Source: Flaviaestuariibacter sp.
GTDB taxonomy: Bacteria > Bacteroidota > Bacteroidia > Chitinophagales > Chitinophagaceae
Assembly: GCA_025963645.1 (NCBI GenBank)
Contig: JAOQAI010000006.1
Location: 62,001-126,000 of the forward strand
Direction: 5' to 3'
DNA: 64,000 nucleotides
Shown here piece after piece: positions 35,252 through 39,535 of the stretch. The first letter of the stretch is position 1, and every line of letters begins with the position of its first letter. Under the pieces are notes generated by a model. It worked only from the letters and a program-made list of their open reading frames with translations, was not told the DNA's origin and made no database searches. Position numbers and translations under genes: made by a program.

Positions 35252-35502
35252 TTCAAAATTGTAAATAGGTGCCGCGAAGAGCGTGAGCCGGCATTCAAAA
35301 AATGAAAAGGGGCTCCGGTGAGCGAGAGGGTGCCTTCAATTTTTGAAATAGGGGTCACACTGTCCGCAAGGGTGATTTCAAAAAATGAAATAGGGTTCGC
35401 GGTGTTCGTCTGCCAGGCTTCACTTTTTGAAATGGGCTACACACTGTGCGAAAGCTTCTATTCACTTTTTGAAATAACATTACACCCGGGTGGCGGGTGC
35501 GC
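35252..35502. repeat. six-unit array with 42-bp period and palindromic core
   Basis: Core motifs begin at 35252, 35294, 35335, 35377, 35419 and 35461, giving intervals of 42, 41, 42, 42 and 42 bases. The core is TTCA-N5-TGAA followed by A/T and GGG (for example TTCAAAAAATGAAATAGGG). Units 2 and 4 have A-rich centres; units 3, 5 and 6 have T-rich centres. The 22-base remainder of each unit is only weakly conserved. In one plus frame units 3-6 encode 14-residue repeats beginning S-[IL]-F-E. There are no cas genes. The remaining bases to 35678 show no clear feature. Confidence 0.8.
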
Positions 35503-35679: not shown

Positions 35680-35752
35680 GGTCCGAAATCCCCCTTGCGG
35701 TTTTACCTTATGCGAACGGTCACCTATCCCCCTTTATAAAGGGGGAGTGCAG
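35680..35752. repeat. intergenic repeats: GAAATCCCCCTTG-type unit and CCCCCTTTATAAAGGGGG palindrome
   Basis: GTCCGAAATCCCCCTTGCGG followed by CTTATGC (35683-35716) is a member of a repeat family that recurs at 36238-36310 and, inverted, at 39386-39535. The 18-bp perfect palindrome at 35728-35745 has the same architecture as the IS1595 insertion target. Confidence 0.6.
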
Positions 35753-35811: not shown

Positions 35812-36180
35812 TTAAGAGAATTGACATCCCTCAATAAAAGCCTCTATCCTCCGCAGCACAACATCCATATCCTTTTGCACTTCTTCATCACTAAAGCGCA
35901 AAAAGCGCAGCCCCAGGTCTTCCAATACAGATTGCCGTTCCCTGTCTAAAAGCTTTTGGTCCCCCTCGTGATAACCGCCATCCACTTCGATCACCAGCCG
36001 CAAGGTCTTGCAATAAAAATCGACGATGTAAGTGGCAATAGGCTTTTGCCGGTTGAAGGTGTAGCCTCTTAGTCTGCCTGCCCGCAGCCGCTGCCAGAGC
36101 AATACCTCGCCAAGCGTGGAATGGTTTCGCAGGTAGCGGGCAAAGGCTTTGCGGTCTTTGTTGTAGGGCAGATGGTACAT
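35812..36180 (-). CDS. DUF559 domain protein (Vsr-like PD-(D/E)XK nuclease fold)
   Basis: 122 residues from the ATG at 36180 (MYHLPYNKD). The DUF559 pattern is complete: ARYLRNHSTLGEVLLWQRL, RGYTFNRQKPIATYIVDFYC, then LVIEVDGGYHEGDQ and a C-terminal LGLRFLRFSDEEV. The D in IVDFYC and the E-V-D are the putative nuclease residues, as in Vsr. Such proteins are common single genes in Bacteroidota, often in accessory DNA. The biological target is unknown. Confidence 0.88.
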   Translation of the reverse strand: MYHLPYNKDRKAFARYLRNHSTLGEVLLWQRLRAGRLRGYTFNRQKPIATYIVDFYCKTLRLVIEVDGGYHEGDQKLLDRERQSVLEDLGLRFLRFSDEEVQKDMDVVLRRIEAFIEGCQFS

Positions 36181-36335
36181 GAGAATTAAAGATAGAAAAG
36201 CTTCATTTATTATGCATGCTTTGCTGGGCATCGTTGAGGAAATCCCCTTCGTCTTTTCCGGTAATCAATCCGTCCGCACTCCCTTGGAAATCCCCCTTAG
36301 TATGCGTCCGCAAATCGGCCTGTTCACACTCCCCC

Positions 36336-36343
36336 TTTGCAAA
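36336..36343 (+). repeat. target-site duplication, left
   Basis: TTTGCAAA directly outside the left element end; the same 8 bases occur at 39357-39364. Removing the element restores CCCCCTTTGCAAAGGGGG, a perfect palindrome. Confidence 0.85.
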
Positions 36344-36368
36344 GGGAACTATATACGAGTTGGGACAA
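36344..36368 (+). repeat. left terminal inverted repeat of the IS1595 element
   Basis: 25 bases, perfect inverted match to 39332-39356. Confidence 0.9.
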
Positions 36369-36377
36369 GGAGGGCAA

Positions 36378-36401
36378 ATAAAAAAGAGGACTTAGCCTCT
36401 T
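36378..36401 (-). terminator. terminator of the cargo ATPase gene
   Basis: A 6-bp stem AAGAGG/CCTCTT with a 6-base loop and a T run on the minus strand, 14 bases after the ATPase stop and 10 bases inside the left inverted repeat. Confidence 0.75.
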
Positions 36402-36414
36402 TTGGAGTATTAAC

Positions 36415-37851
36415 TTACACCGCCTTTTTTACAATTGTATTGTACCCTACAGTTAAAGCATAAGCCGCACTTGGAAAAAAGTGAATTTTTATCCCTTCAA
36501 CCTCAACCACTTGATCTATATCAATGGTGGTTACAATTGCGGATGGAAGGCTATGTTTTTTGCAGAAATATATAATGTTTTTAAGCTCTTTTTTGTCTGT
36601 ATATGGTTTATTTGACCACTTGATTTCAACTGCCAAATTAGGCTTAAGGGTCTTTGGATTTAATAAAACCATATCCACCTCCCCCTTCTTCCAGTTTGCA
36701 TAACGGGGCACTATCCAGTCTCTATGTAACCATTGCGCGAAGATTGCAGTTTCAACCATGTGACCGAACATTTCATCTCTTTCAAGTAATGGAGAAAATA
36801 AAGCGCTTCTCAAAGAGGGGTTTGTAAGAAAAACTTTATAGGAGACATCCCGCTGGAAGTGTTTTGCGTTATCATCTATTCTTTGTATTCGCCTAATCAA
36901 GAATGCTGCCTCTAAGTATGTTATGTGCTTTTTTAGAGTATCTATGTTCACATTGCTGTTCGTAGATAAAGATTGCAAGGAAACTTCATTACCACTGTAA
37001 TAGGCCAACCTTGAAAAGAATGAATTAAGTTCTTGAACGTTACTTATGCCATACAAACTTGGTAAATCACGTAACAAAACCTTATCAATAATATCATTCT
37101 TTATATACCTTCCAGGGTTTAGTTGCATTTTTTCACTAAAAATTACTTCTGGATAACCTCCAAAGTTTATGTAATTAATGAAGTGCGAGTTTAATTCGTT
37201 AATATTTGTAGTAGACAAAAACTCCTTCTCGTTTCCATTCCAATTCACTTGTTTGGTTCTTATTAGCGCATCTAAATCTTTAAGGTAGATGTATTCATGG
37301 AAGGTTAAGGGGGGAAGCATGAAATCCGTGAACCTTCCTGCGCCACTCTCGTTGCTTTTTAGTTTCAATGCAGCCGCCGCAGATCCGCTGACTATGAATT
37401 TAGTATAAGGATAACTGTCGACAAGAACTTTCAGGTGAACCTCCCAGTCTTTCAAGTATTGTATTTCGTCAAAAAACACATACCATCCGTCTGGAGTTTT
37501 GGAGTCAACTGCCGTTCTTGCATTAGTAAACAGTTCTTCCAGCCCTCTATATAAGTACAATGGGTTTTCTATATTTATGTAGCATATTTTGTCTTTAGCT
37601 ACACCTTTTTCCATCAATTTCTCAATTGAATGGTGCATCATAACAGTCTTACCCACACGTCTTGGTCCCATCAATACCACAGCCCGCCTAATATCTGTTT
37701 CTTCAACTAAGGGATAAAATAATTCAAAGTACAATCTTCTTCTCATCACATCATAGTCATAATCAATTGCATTTGTGGTCCACCAAGGATTTTCGTATTT
37801 CATTCTTTCTACAATCAAATGCTCAGCTATGGGTTTAAGCTTCCTTGCCAT
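36415..37851 (-). CDS. AAA ATPase with DUF4143 domain (transposon cargo)
   Basis: 478 residues. The AAA_14 ATPase domain holds Walker A (MGPRRVGKTVMM, about residues 60-72) and Walker B (WYVFFDEIQYL, about 124-134). The DUF4143 part (about 245-430) contains KVLLRDLPSLYGI, a winged-helix-like stretch (LKKHITYLEAAFLIRRIQRI) and a PD-(D/E)XK-like site GEVDMVLLNPK...AVEIKWS. This family is widespread but its role is unclear. It is transcribed away from the transposase, shares a 118-base divergent promoter region with it, and lies entirely between the element inverted repeats. Confidence 0.9.
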   Translation of the reverse strand: MARKLKPIAEHLIVERMKYENPWWTTNAIDYDYDVMRRRLYFELFYPLVEETDIRRAVVLMGPRRVGKTVMMHHSIEKLMEKGVAKDKICYINIENPLYLYRGLEELFTNARTAVDSKTPDGWYVFFDEIQYLKDWEVHLKVLVDSYPYTKFIVSGSAAAALKLKSNESGAGRFTDFMLPPLTFHEYIYLKDLDALIRTKQVNWNGNEKEFLSTTNINELNSHFINYINFGGYPEVIFSEKMQLNPGRYIKNDIIDKVLLRDLPSLYGISNVQELNSFFSRLAYYSGNEVSLQSLSTNSNVNIDTLKKHITYLEAAFLIRRIQRIDDNAKHFQRDVSYKVFLTNPSLRSALFSPLLERDEMFGHMVETAIFAQWLHRDWIVPRYANWKKGEVDMVLLNPKTLKPNLAVEIKWSNKPYTDKKELKNIIYFCKKHSLPSAIVTTIDIDQVVEVEGIKIHFFPSAAYALTVGYNTIVKKAV

Positions 37852-37868
37852 TTCGTTAACTTTTTAGA

Positions 37869-37924
37869 ACTAAATATTTCGTGCTATTCATACAATATTA
37901 ATGAATTAAAACGAAACATTTAGT
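37869..37924. promoter_or_regulatory. dyad in the divergent ATPase/transposase promoter region
   Basis: ACTAAATATTTCGT (37869-37882) and ACGAAACATTTAGT (37911-37924) form a 14-bp inverted repeat with one mismatch and a 28-base spacer. It is a possible operator for both genes. Confidence 0.5.
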
Positions 37925-37943
37925 GTTATTTGAATAAAATATG

Positions 37944-37951
37944 TATATTTG
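37944..37951 (+). promoter_or_regulatory. -7 box of the transposase gene
   Basis: TATATTTG is a perfect TAnnTTTG box, 18 bases before the ATG at 37970. No TTG lies at the expected -33 distance. Confidence 0.5.
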
Positions 37952-37969
37952 TCCCATAATAAGCCTAAT

Positions 37970-38884
37970 ATGAGTTTTAAAAACTTACAACAACTGTTTG
38001 ACACCTTTAAGGATGAAGAAACGTGTCGTGCCTATTTGGAACAGCAGCGCTGGAATGGTAGCGTTGAGTGCCCTTTCTGCGCCTGTACCAAAGTGTACCG
38101 CACTAACAGGGGCTTTAAGTGTGCTGATAAATTCTGTGCTAAGAAGTTTACGGTTACCGTTGGTACTATCTATGAAAACAGCAAGGTCGGTTTACGTACT
38201 TTCTTTGCAGCCTTGTACCTTATATCCTCTTCTAAAAAAGGCATTAGCTCTTTACAGTTAAGCCGCCAGTTAGGTATCACTCAAAAATCGGCTTGGTTTG
38301 TATTACACCGCATCCGTGAAATGCTGAAAGATAGACAGCCGCAAATACTGAAAGGCACGGTTGAAGTAGATGAAACCTATGTAGGCGGTAAAGAAAAGAA
38401 TAAGCATAAGAGCAAAAGAGTAAATAAGTCCGGCATGGCCAACAAAGTGCCTATGGTAGGTCTATTGCAACGTGATGGTAGAATTGTTTTGAAAACATTA
38501 CCTAAAGGTGCAGCTAATGGAGTGAATATAAAACCAATCATACGCAAGCACGTTGTAAACGATGCCACTATTTATACTGACGGATTTGGTGCTTATAAAG
38601 ACTTAAATAAAGAGTTTGCCGTACATGGCACCGTTGACCATGCAAATGGCGAATACGTATTAAATGGCATTGTACATACTAACTCAATAGAAGGCTTTTG
38701 GAGCATCTTAAAGCGTGGTTTGTACGGTATCTATCACCAAGTAAGCGAAAAGCATTTGCAGCGCTATTGTGATGAGTTCTCTGCTCGTTACAATACAAGA
38801 GATATTAAAGACAACGAGCGCTTTGAACTGGCAGTAAAGAACAGCGAAGGCCGGTTGACTTACAATACATTGATTGCAAAATAA
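37970..38884 (+). CDS. IS1595-family (ISXO2-like) transposase
   Basis: 304 residues from the ATG at 37970 (MSFKNLQQLF). The N-terminal zinc-ribbon is C-x2-C...C-x4-C (VECPFCACTK, then FKCADKFCAKKFT). A helix-turn-helix segment (SSLQLSRQLGITQKSAWFVL) follows. The DDE-type catalytic core is VEVDETYVGGK (Asp about 134), IYTDGFGAY (Asp about 204) and HTNSIEGFWSILKRG (Asn about 238, Glu about 241), as in ISXO2-type proteins with D-D-N/E. It is full length with a strong terminator, so the element could be active. Confidence 0.94.
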   Translation: MSFKNLQQLFDTFKDEETCRAYLEQQRWNGSVECPFCACTKVYRTNRGFKCADKFCAKKFTVTVGTIYENSKVGLRTFFAALYLISSSKKGISSLQLSRQLGITQKSAWFVLHRIREMLKDRQPQILKGTVEVDETYVGGKEKNKHKSKRVNKSGMANKVPMVGLLQRDGRIVLKTLPKGAANGVNIKPIIRKHVVNDATIYTDGFGAYKDLNKEFAVHGTVDHANGEYVLNGIVHTNSIEGFWSILKRGLYGIYHQVSEKHLQRYCDEFSARYNTRDIKDNERFELAVKNSEGRLTYNTLIAK

Positions 38885-38886
38885 TA

Positions 38887-38908
38887 GAAGCCTTCGGGCT
38901 TCTTTTTT
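38887..38908 (+). terminator. terminator of the transposase gene
   Basis: 6-bp stem GAAGCC/GGCTTC with a TTCG tetraloop followed by six T. Confidence 0.9.
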
Positions 38909-38919
38909 ATCTTTATACT

Positions 38920-39063
38920 ATGGCAAAGGCAGCACCGAAAAAAGCAGCACCTAAAAAGCGTGCAGAGCAATACGAACCGAAAGTAAAGACTGACCTTTCT
39001 TTCGATCAGCTTATTGCTATGTCAGTAAATAAACCGCAGGAAAAGAAAAATCAAAAGGAATAG
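38920..39063 (+). CDS. small basic protein (element cargo)
   Basis: 47 residues from the ATG at 38920. The N-terminus is Lys/Ala/Pro-rich (AKAAPKKAAPKKRAEQYEPK), reminiscent of histone-H1-like or nucleic-acid-binding tails, followed by DLSFDQLIAMSVNKPQEK. It starts 12 bases after the transposase terminator and is followed after 3 bases by another small gene. Function unknown. Confidence 0.65.
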   Translation: MAKAAPKKAAPKKRAEQYEPKVKTDLSFDQLIAMSVNKPQEKKNQKE

Positions 39064-39066
39064 CTT

Positions 39067-39318
39067 ATGATGTCAGATCAGGAATTTAACGAGATGAAAG
39101 AATGGGGTGAAAGAAAAATGAAAGAAATTGATGCAGAGTTAGATAAGCTCATTAAAGGCTATAAAGAAATGCCTAAGGAGGCTTTGCGTGAAAGGTTATC
39201 TATAATTGATACCGATACATTGAAATGGATCAGTACAGAATTAGCGCTCCCGTCAGAGGAATATGAAATCTGCCAAATAGCAAAAGAGGTTTTAAATGAA
39301 AAAGGCGAAAGCCTCTAA
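39067..39318 (+). CDS. small acidic helical protein (element cargo)
   Basis: 83 residues; the ATG at 39067 and the next ATG at 39070 are both possible starts. It is highly charged and helical (EFNEMKEWGERKMKEIDAEL, then DKLIKGYKEM). It is spaced 3 bases from the preceding small gene and ends 14 bases before the right inverted repeat; a hairpin AGGC-GAAA-GCCT (39303-39314) lies in its last codons. No family recognised. Confidence 0.65.
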   Translation: MMSDQEFNEMKEWGERKMKEIDAELDKLIKGYKEMPKEALRERLSIIDTDTLKWISTELALPSEEYEICQIAKEVLNEKGESL

Positions 39319-39331
39319 TTTTTTAAACCTA

Positions 39332-39356
39332 TTGTCCCAACTCGTATATAGTTCCC
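39332..39356 (-). repeat. right terminal inverted repeat of the IS1595 element
   Basis: 25-base perfect inverted copy of 36344-36368. Confidence 0.9.
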
Positions 39357-39364
39357 TTTGCAAA
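39357..39364 (+). repeat. target-site duplication, right
   Basis: TTTGCAAA, identical to 36336-36343, followed by GGGGG. Confidence 0.85.
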
Positions 39365-39535
39365 GGGGGATGGGAAACACTCCGCATAAAACAGAAATGC
39401 AAGGGGGATTTCAGATAGGAAGCACTCTGCATAAGATAAAATCGTAAGGAGAATTTCGGACCGGGCACGCATTCGCTTCAAGACCGCAAGGGGATTTTAG
39501 GAATGGATACACCGCATAAATAGCAAGCGAATTTG
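39365..39535. repeat. cluster of degenerate intergenic repeats
   Basis: Three or four inverted relatives of the GAAATCCCCCTTG...CTTATGCGGA unit follow one another (around 39386, 39418 and 39481). The 333-base gap between the last element gene and the DUF4382 gene holds no gene apart from these and the element end. Confidence 0.5.

Follow-up and report, generated by a model that had tools for sequence, protein, structure and literature searches.

We analysed a 64,000-nucleotide stretch of Flaviaestuariibacter sp. DNA (the window; bases 62001-126000 of contig 17, in a genome assembly of 2.57 Mb that is 63% complete) and found at 36344-39356 a complete element of the IS1595 family, bounded by terminal inverted repeats, flanked by a target-site duplication and holding an intact DDE transposase, an ATPase gene and two small genes, s1 and s2. 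Sequence comparison suggests, with a probability that we put at about 0.72, that this is a cargo-carrying 'transporter IS' (IS, insertion sequence) whose ATPase is a swapped passenger and whose small protein s1 is a probable companion within the transposition module. Transporter IS are already known as a kind of element; what is new is the small companion protein. The features are listed below (aa, amino acids; ORF, open reading frame).

36336-36343, no strand: left target-site duplication TTTGCAAA, read directly
36344-36368, plus strand: left terminal inverted repeat, 25 bp (repeat search; similar ends in related elements)
36415-37851, minus strand: probable cargo gene for an AAA_14 ATPase with DUF4143 (PD-(D/E)XK-like), 478 aa, candidate defence family PDC-S01 (Pfam, PADLOC, motif conservation)
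37970-38884, plus strand: IS1595-family DDE transposase, 304 aa, with zinc ribbon and ISXO2-like domain and putative catalytic residues D134, D204 and E241 (Pfam, NCBIfam, alignment)
38920-39063, plus strand: s1, 47-aa basic small protein of an element-associated companion family (profile searches; no Pfam match)
39067-39318, plus strand: s2, 83-aa small protein (ORF list; no relative in the searched loci)
39332-39356, minus strand: right terminal inverted repeat, 25 bp (repeat search)
39357-39364, no strand: right target-site duplication TTTGCAAA, read directly
36331-36343 and 39357-39369, no strand: left and right halves of the palindromic target CCCCCTTTGCAAAGGGGG (direct reading, palindrome searches)

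The element and its boundaries

The two inverted repeats agree in 25 of 25 positions, and a search pattern with up to 3 mismatches gave two matches where none was expected (100 shuffles). The 8-bp duplication is embedded in the palindrome CCCCC-TTTGCAAA-GGGGG, with a 14-bp direct repeat CCCTTTGCAAAGGG, and the exact boundary is therefore ambiguous by a few bases when judged alone. It is supported by relatives, in which ends such as GGTAACTATATACGAGTTGGGACAA (locus L086), nearly identical to those of the window, are accompanied by 8-bp duplications. The genes form two divergent sets, with the transposase and the two small genes pointing rightward and the ATPase leftward. An earlier note on this DNA had described a complete, apparently intact IS1595 (ISXO2-like) element with perfect 25-bp ends and an 8-bp duplication, and within it a divergent AAA ATPase with a PD-(D/E)XK-like C-terminus and two small genes. 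Both descriptions were confirmed, the former by repeat, domain and catalytic-residue checks and the latter by Pfam, motifs and ORFs. The transposase and the ATPase each have one copy in the genome assembly, so the element is single-copy there.

The transposase ORF as listed starts with TTG at 37949, and a usable ATG lies at 37970. Its product matches the ISXO2-like domain PF12762 (134 bits against a cutoff of 27), the IS1595 transposase model NF033547 of NCBIfam (208 bits against 75) and the N-terminal zinc ribbon PF12760 (37.5 bits against 25.4). D134, D204 and E241, which we take to be the catalytic residues, are invariant across the 37 transposases aligned. Transposase domain, zinc ribbon, intact DDE-type residues, 8-bp duplication and terminal inverted repeats together place the element in the IS1595 family. 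In the available portions of the literature, 8-bp repeats are given for an IS1595 member (PMC12561309), and IS with passenger genes are termed transporter IS (PMC3129680, citing Siguier et al. 2009; also PMC10132070). The window element resembles the elements so described in its DDE_Tnp_IS1595 and zinc-ribbon domains, inverted repeats, 8-bp duplication and passenger genes, and differs in belonging to a lineage whose bounded elements nearly all bear cargo, many with a conserved small companion protein.

Related elements and the genes between their ends

Related loci were collected by a transposase search of 147 same-family genomes at E<=1e-60, which gave 46 matches in 31 genomes, and from the GTDB contig collection, which gave 55 loci; 5 of the 45 other same-family matches were left out of the fetched loci, L031 was removed as a duplicate of L086, and for a Latescibacteria record with 28 loci the examination of ends covered L054 and L055 only. 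Elements were bounded by a strict rule (inverted repeats matching in at least 19 of 24 positions, duplication in 8 of 8), apart from L090, whose limits were read directly from its end sequences. This yielded 39 distinct elements among 73 loci examined for ends, and the strict rule found no match in 146 shuffled loci. A looser rule matched in 8 of 20 shuffled loci and was therefore not used for counts; L114 (ends at the contig edge), L124, L047 and L102 showed end-like repeats that failed the strict rule. Nine further elements found through s1 (L231, L232, L238-L240, L242, L246, L248, L249) brought the total to 48.

The 39 elements of the strict set are 2.2-6.5 kb long and carry differing genes, except for the simple 1.28-kb L054 and the 1.7-kb L187, which has a partial transposase match; that is, 37 of 39 exceed 2.2 kb and hold additional genes. 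The window-type ATPase was found by tblastn in one of the 48, the window's own, and in none of the other 47. In other genomes, elements with near-identical ends carry other genes and no ATPase, an outcome that the earlier note had named as one that would refute its reading. Since one of 48 elements carries the ATPase and none of the 15 loci of its relatives described below adjoins IS1595 sequence in the fetched DNA, the ATPase is best read as one interchangeable passenger of a transporter IS and not as a fixed part. Across 135 loci the sole other tblastn match was a distant one in L047, which was dropped as an ATPase-bearing relative because its partial match (24% identity) starts at what is probably the right end and a duplication was not found.

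As a separate observation, the Latescibacteria record OY282377.1 (L054-L085) holds 28 IS1595-like loci in one chromosome, the only strictly bounded one being the simple L054. These multi-copy loci contrast with the low-copy cargo elements of Bacteroidota.

A small protein that accompanies the transposase

The earlier note had listed the two small genes, which are both present, and had passed over s1, which profile searches revealed as a recurrent companion of the transposase. A first profile, built from seven small proteins, had 17 ORF matches at E<0.05, of which 11 were non-seeds; every match fell within an element (124 kb in total), and the flanks (319 kb) gave none. An 18-row profile, A1, gave 48 matches in 36 of 244 genomes of the bacterial family. 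IS1595 transposase sequence was found within 3.1 kb of 37 of these 48 matches, 5 of the 37 being partial remnants, and of 21 of 32 once the 16 seeds were removed. By a rough estimate chance proximity is negligible, because the 147 genomes searched hold only 46 strong transposase matches. In a class-wide search of 375 genomes, 13 s1 matches were obtained, 10 of them outside the family. At nine of these 10 a full-length IS1595 transposase match lies 14-2705 bp away (distances by hand), with s1 located 14-63 bp behind it at six, and seven of the nine loci have good ends and 8-bp duplications. The association of s1 with the IS1595 transposase lineage is thus well supported by these comparisons.

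Within the strictly bounded set, 29 of 39 elements have s1 or a related tail: 18 by the s1 profile (L034 marginally), L187 by the A1 profile search and ten by a tail profile, with the nine elements found through s1 excluded from this count. Among 25 elements with differing cargo, the identity matrices of s1 and transposase are correlated (Mantel r 0.46, p 0.0001). Within the run of genes s1 mostly occupies an outer position, on either side, and its stop codon is 55-83 bp from the element end in 11 of 25. Codon differences at positions 1, 2 and 3 number 417:296:703 over 28 overlapping pairs, and this third-position excess is as expected for a conserved protein.

None of the 18 profile members of s1 matched Pfam at E<=0.01, and searches of Pfam, PADLOC and NCBIfam gave no usable E-value for either s1 or s2 (best for s2, 0.016). 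Searches of solved structures gave four weak matches to s1, the best at E 0.0023 to a designed repeat protein, which we did not credit. For s2, no relative was found in the loci searched. A terminator-like hairpin lies between transposase and s1 in the window and is not clearly shared by the other elements looked at. Literature searches returned no companion protein described for IS1595 in the available portions of the papers found (including PMC12561309 and PMC7986276), a search that did not reach the founding paper, Siguier et al. 2009.

Possible roles of s1

As s1 keeps to this lineage of transposases through changes of cargo, its action is most likely tied to the transposase or to the element ends; s1 is probably a protein of the transposition module, perhaps a transposase partner, and probably not cargo. 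Several observations weigh against such a role. In the fetched DNA, no transposase was present for 11 of the 48 family matches and 1 of the 10 outside. Of these 12, four are about 1 kb or less from a contig end and four (L236, L245, L250, L253) have a downstream 10-11-base end-like motif, counted with no chance control; two show both and six neither. By the profiles used, 10 of 39 elements lack both s1 and the tail, and the simple L054 has no s1 match. The correlation with transposase divergence would be expected of any element part inherited vertically with the transposase. Moreover, in L087, L088, L110 and L238, s1 stands at the end of the cargo genes and not beside the transposase, which also fits a cargo-related role.

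This last arrangement, with s1 as the last gene behind the cargo, is what one would expect if s1 were a regulator or antitoxin-like partner of the cargo, kept because much of the cargo is toxic. Some cargo does match toxin-antitoxin families, and toxin-antitoxin pairs have been argued to be integral to the transposition module of Tn3-family transposons (PMC7157771, available in part), where, as here, small genes are retained with the transposition module and other passengers vary. On the other side, the same s1 family stands beside unrelated cargo, s1 divergence follows the transposase, and in six out-of-family loci s1 lies 14-63 bp behind the transposase match. Unlike the Tn3-family pairs, s1, which belongs to another transposon family, is a single small basic protein in which no toxin or antitoxin domain was recognised, and no recognisable toxin and antitoxin pair was found beside the transposase, as neither small protein has a usable match in the three databases named above. 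We consider a cargo-partner role unlikely, at roughly one chance in four.

A more far-reaching proposal goes beyond s1 as a probable transposition-module protein: s1 might found an undescribed protein family whose members are functional components of IS1595 transposons, serving as small basic partners of the transposase that remain when cargo is exchanged. We hold this only tentatively, as less probable than not. A related short tail, consisting of a helix-like stretch and then a P-/K-rich end, appears to be fused to the C-termini of cargo proteins in L049, L116, L120 and L125 and to form small proteins of its own in elements from alphaproteobacteria; in L051 visual inspection alone placed it at the N-terminal end of a DNA methyltransferase. 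The ten cases counted above for the tail are weak evidence, because nine were seeds chosen by eye inside elements and only L037 is a non-seed. If tail and s1 are the same module, the tail would be an address label tying cargo proteins to the transposition machinery.

The ATPase/DUF4143 gene

The ATPase has Pfam matches above cutoff to AAA_14 and DUF4143 and matches seven PADLOC models of PDC-S01, best PDLC04787 (E 9.9e-56, residues 35-456). The Walker A motif GPRRVGKT, the Walker B core FDEIQ, a VD motif and the E and K of an E-x-K motif are identical in 16 of 16 ATPase sequences. The gene thus has the model match of PDC-S01 and, at motif level only, its fusion of an ATPase to a PD-(D/E)XK domain. 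A single-sequence structure model was unusable (predicted local distance difference test score 34), no solved structure matched at E<=0.01, and no relative was found in viral contigs. In the 244 family genomes the gene has 15 relatives of 50-68% identity. None of their loci showed an IS1595 transposase or a window-type end (the only type of end searched for) in the fetched DNA, in which two contigs are only 3.2-3.6 kb long with the gene near the edge.

In the portions available, a 2026 survey (PMC12988326) ranks PDC-S01, an ATPase fused to a PD-(D/E)XK domain, as the fourth most common defence across prokaryotes, with validation pending for most such candidates, and a rumen survey (PMC13356809) places it among the commonest. 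The present gene shares this architecture and differs in sitting inside an IS1595 transposon. Most likely it is a recruited passenger and a single-gene anti-phage candidate, and a defence module, one of the options offered in the earlier note, fits the PADLOC match. The gene lies between the ends; the 47 other bounded elements lack it, and almost all of them contain different genes. The element thus agrees with the definition of a transporter IS, and this absence suggests that the passenger is unrelated to transposition.

The ATPase and s2 could instead be ordinary host genes trapped by chance between two ends, of no benefit to element or host, which would suit a small gene with no relative in the loci searched and an element present once in its genome assembly. 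We regard this as very unlikely, given that the ATPase and nuclease motifs are intact and conserved, that the reading frame is open over its full length and that further genes are the rule in the bounded elements. Least probable is that the ATPase is a transposition accessory fixed in the element, serving in target selection or immunity in the manner of IstB, MuB or TnsC: it is an AAA ATPase inside the element and divergent from the transposase, but no IstB, MuB or TnsC family is among the five Pfam matches listed. Tn7/IS21-type transposons have an AAA partner (TnsC, IstB) and likewise place an AAA ATPase beside a DDE transposase, whereas the present ATPase is of the AAA_14/DUF4143 type and was missing in every related element that we examined. 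This absence, together with the location of its relatives away from IS1595 in the fetched DNA, led us to reject an integral transposition factor and leaves the target-choice and immunity roles raised in the earlier note without support.

Genes carried by the other elements

Of 104 cargo ORFs of at least 100 aa, 98 were scanned in sets of 42, 40 and 16, with PADLOC run on the first 82 only, and 82 flank proteins drawn at random from the 134 nearest flank ORFs served as control; at least one 'cargo' ORF is itself an IS1595 transposase. Ten main cargo proteins were scanned singly, and these include a RosmerTA-type antitoxin (RmrA) in L035 and L188, a SoFic-type Fic protein in L088, a PD-Lambda-2-like protein in L090 and ShosT in L125. 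For all other proteins, the assignment of a tallied family to a protein is deduced from the tallies; with this proviso the matches listed include an MvaI/BcnI restriction enzyme and methylase, a RelA/SpoT protein, a SocA-like antitoxin, AbiD, RhuM and P63C. Two elements stand out on the same basis. L051 (1655-3246) carries an apparent type II restriction-modification pair (DNA methylase and MvaI/BcnI-like enzyme), and L125 (4579-9526) apparently combines DprA-like and ShosT proteins (ShosTA), RhuM (PDC-S05) and AbiD, of which all but ShosT were assigned from tallies.

A general defence character of the cargo is not borne out by these scans. Four of the ten singly scanned proteins had no PADLOC match and one more only a weak one, and PADLOC families numbered 33 and 67 in the sets of 42 and 40 cargo proteins against 103 in the 82 flank proteins, counts that do not demonstrate defence enrichment. 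Enrichment by PADLOC counts was accordingly set aside, as the neighbours match as many models, many of them broad (DpdF, methyltransferases, sigma-54-like). Pfam families numbered 17 and 23 in the same cargo sets against 161 in the neighbours, a difference that may come partly from spurious or shorter cargo ORFs.

Target site and surroundings

Insertions favour palindromes. In 12 of 55 rebuilt empty sites a perfect stem of at least 8 pairs has its centre close to the duplication, compared with 0.34% of positions drawn at random from the flanks, and 3 of 55 duplications are perfect palindromes, against a background of 0.4%. As the background is mostly coding DNA, some of the excess may come from intergenic hairpins, for example terminators, being preferred. 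The window site CCCCCTTTGCAAAGGGGG is among the clearest palindromic targets. The exact sequence is absent from the 63% complete genome assembly, and a looser pattern for target-like palindromes found three places elsewhere in the genome against one for a reversed control, which is uninformative. In 17 of 17 congeneric genomes, one of them with only about 1 kb of sequence there, the DNA upstream of the GH3 neighbour showed neither the element nor the genes that flank it; GH3 itself served as a working control.

A second palindrome of the target type (CCCCTTTATAAAGGGG) lies 600 bases left of the insertion (35727-35744, compared with 36330-36347). Just left of the element, and outside its ends, is a DUF559 endonuclease-like gene (35812-36231, minus strand), which is not part of it. 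Further left, an intergenic array at 35278-35476 consists of five degenerate copies of a 32-nt repeat at a spacing of 41-42 bases, parts of which pair mutually.

Proposed mechanism and significance

By analogy with its family, the DDE transposase would bind the 25-bp ends and move or copy the element, which would be joined to the target with an 8-bp stagger, here on entry into a palindromic, hairpin-forming site. The lysine-rich N-terminus of s1 may contact DNA, and its short conserved stretch G[ST]F[ED]D followed by two hydrophobic residues, possibly a helix, may serve as a docking motif. In the ATPase/DUF4143 protein, ATP-driven recognition would control the PD-(D/E)XK nuclease.

The bounded elements present this lineage of IS1595 as small cargo vehicles with changing genes, several of which match candidate anti-phage or toxin-antitoxin families. 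Within this lineage, s1 is a marker by which such elements can be found and bounded, and a candidate for an unrecognised transposition factor. Through the preference for palindromes, cargo would tend to land in intergenic DNA and cause little harm there. The window element also illustrates one way in which PDC-S01 genes, very common but unvalidated, can be mobilised.

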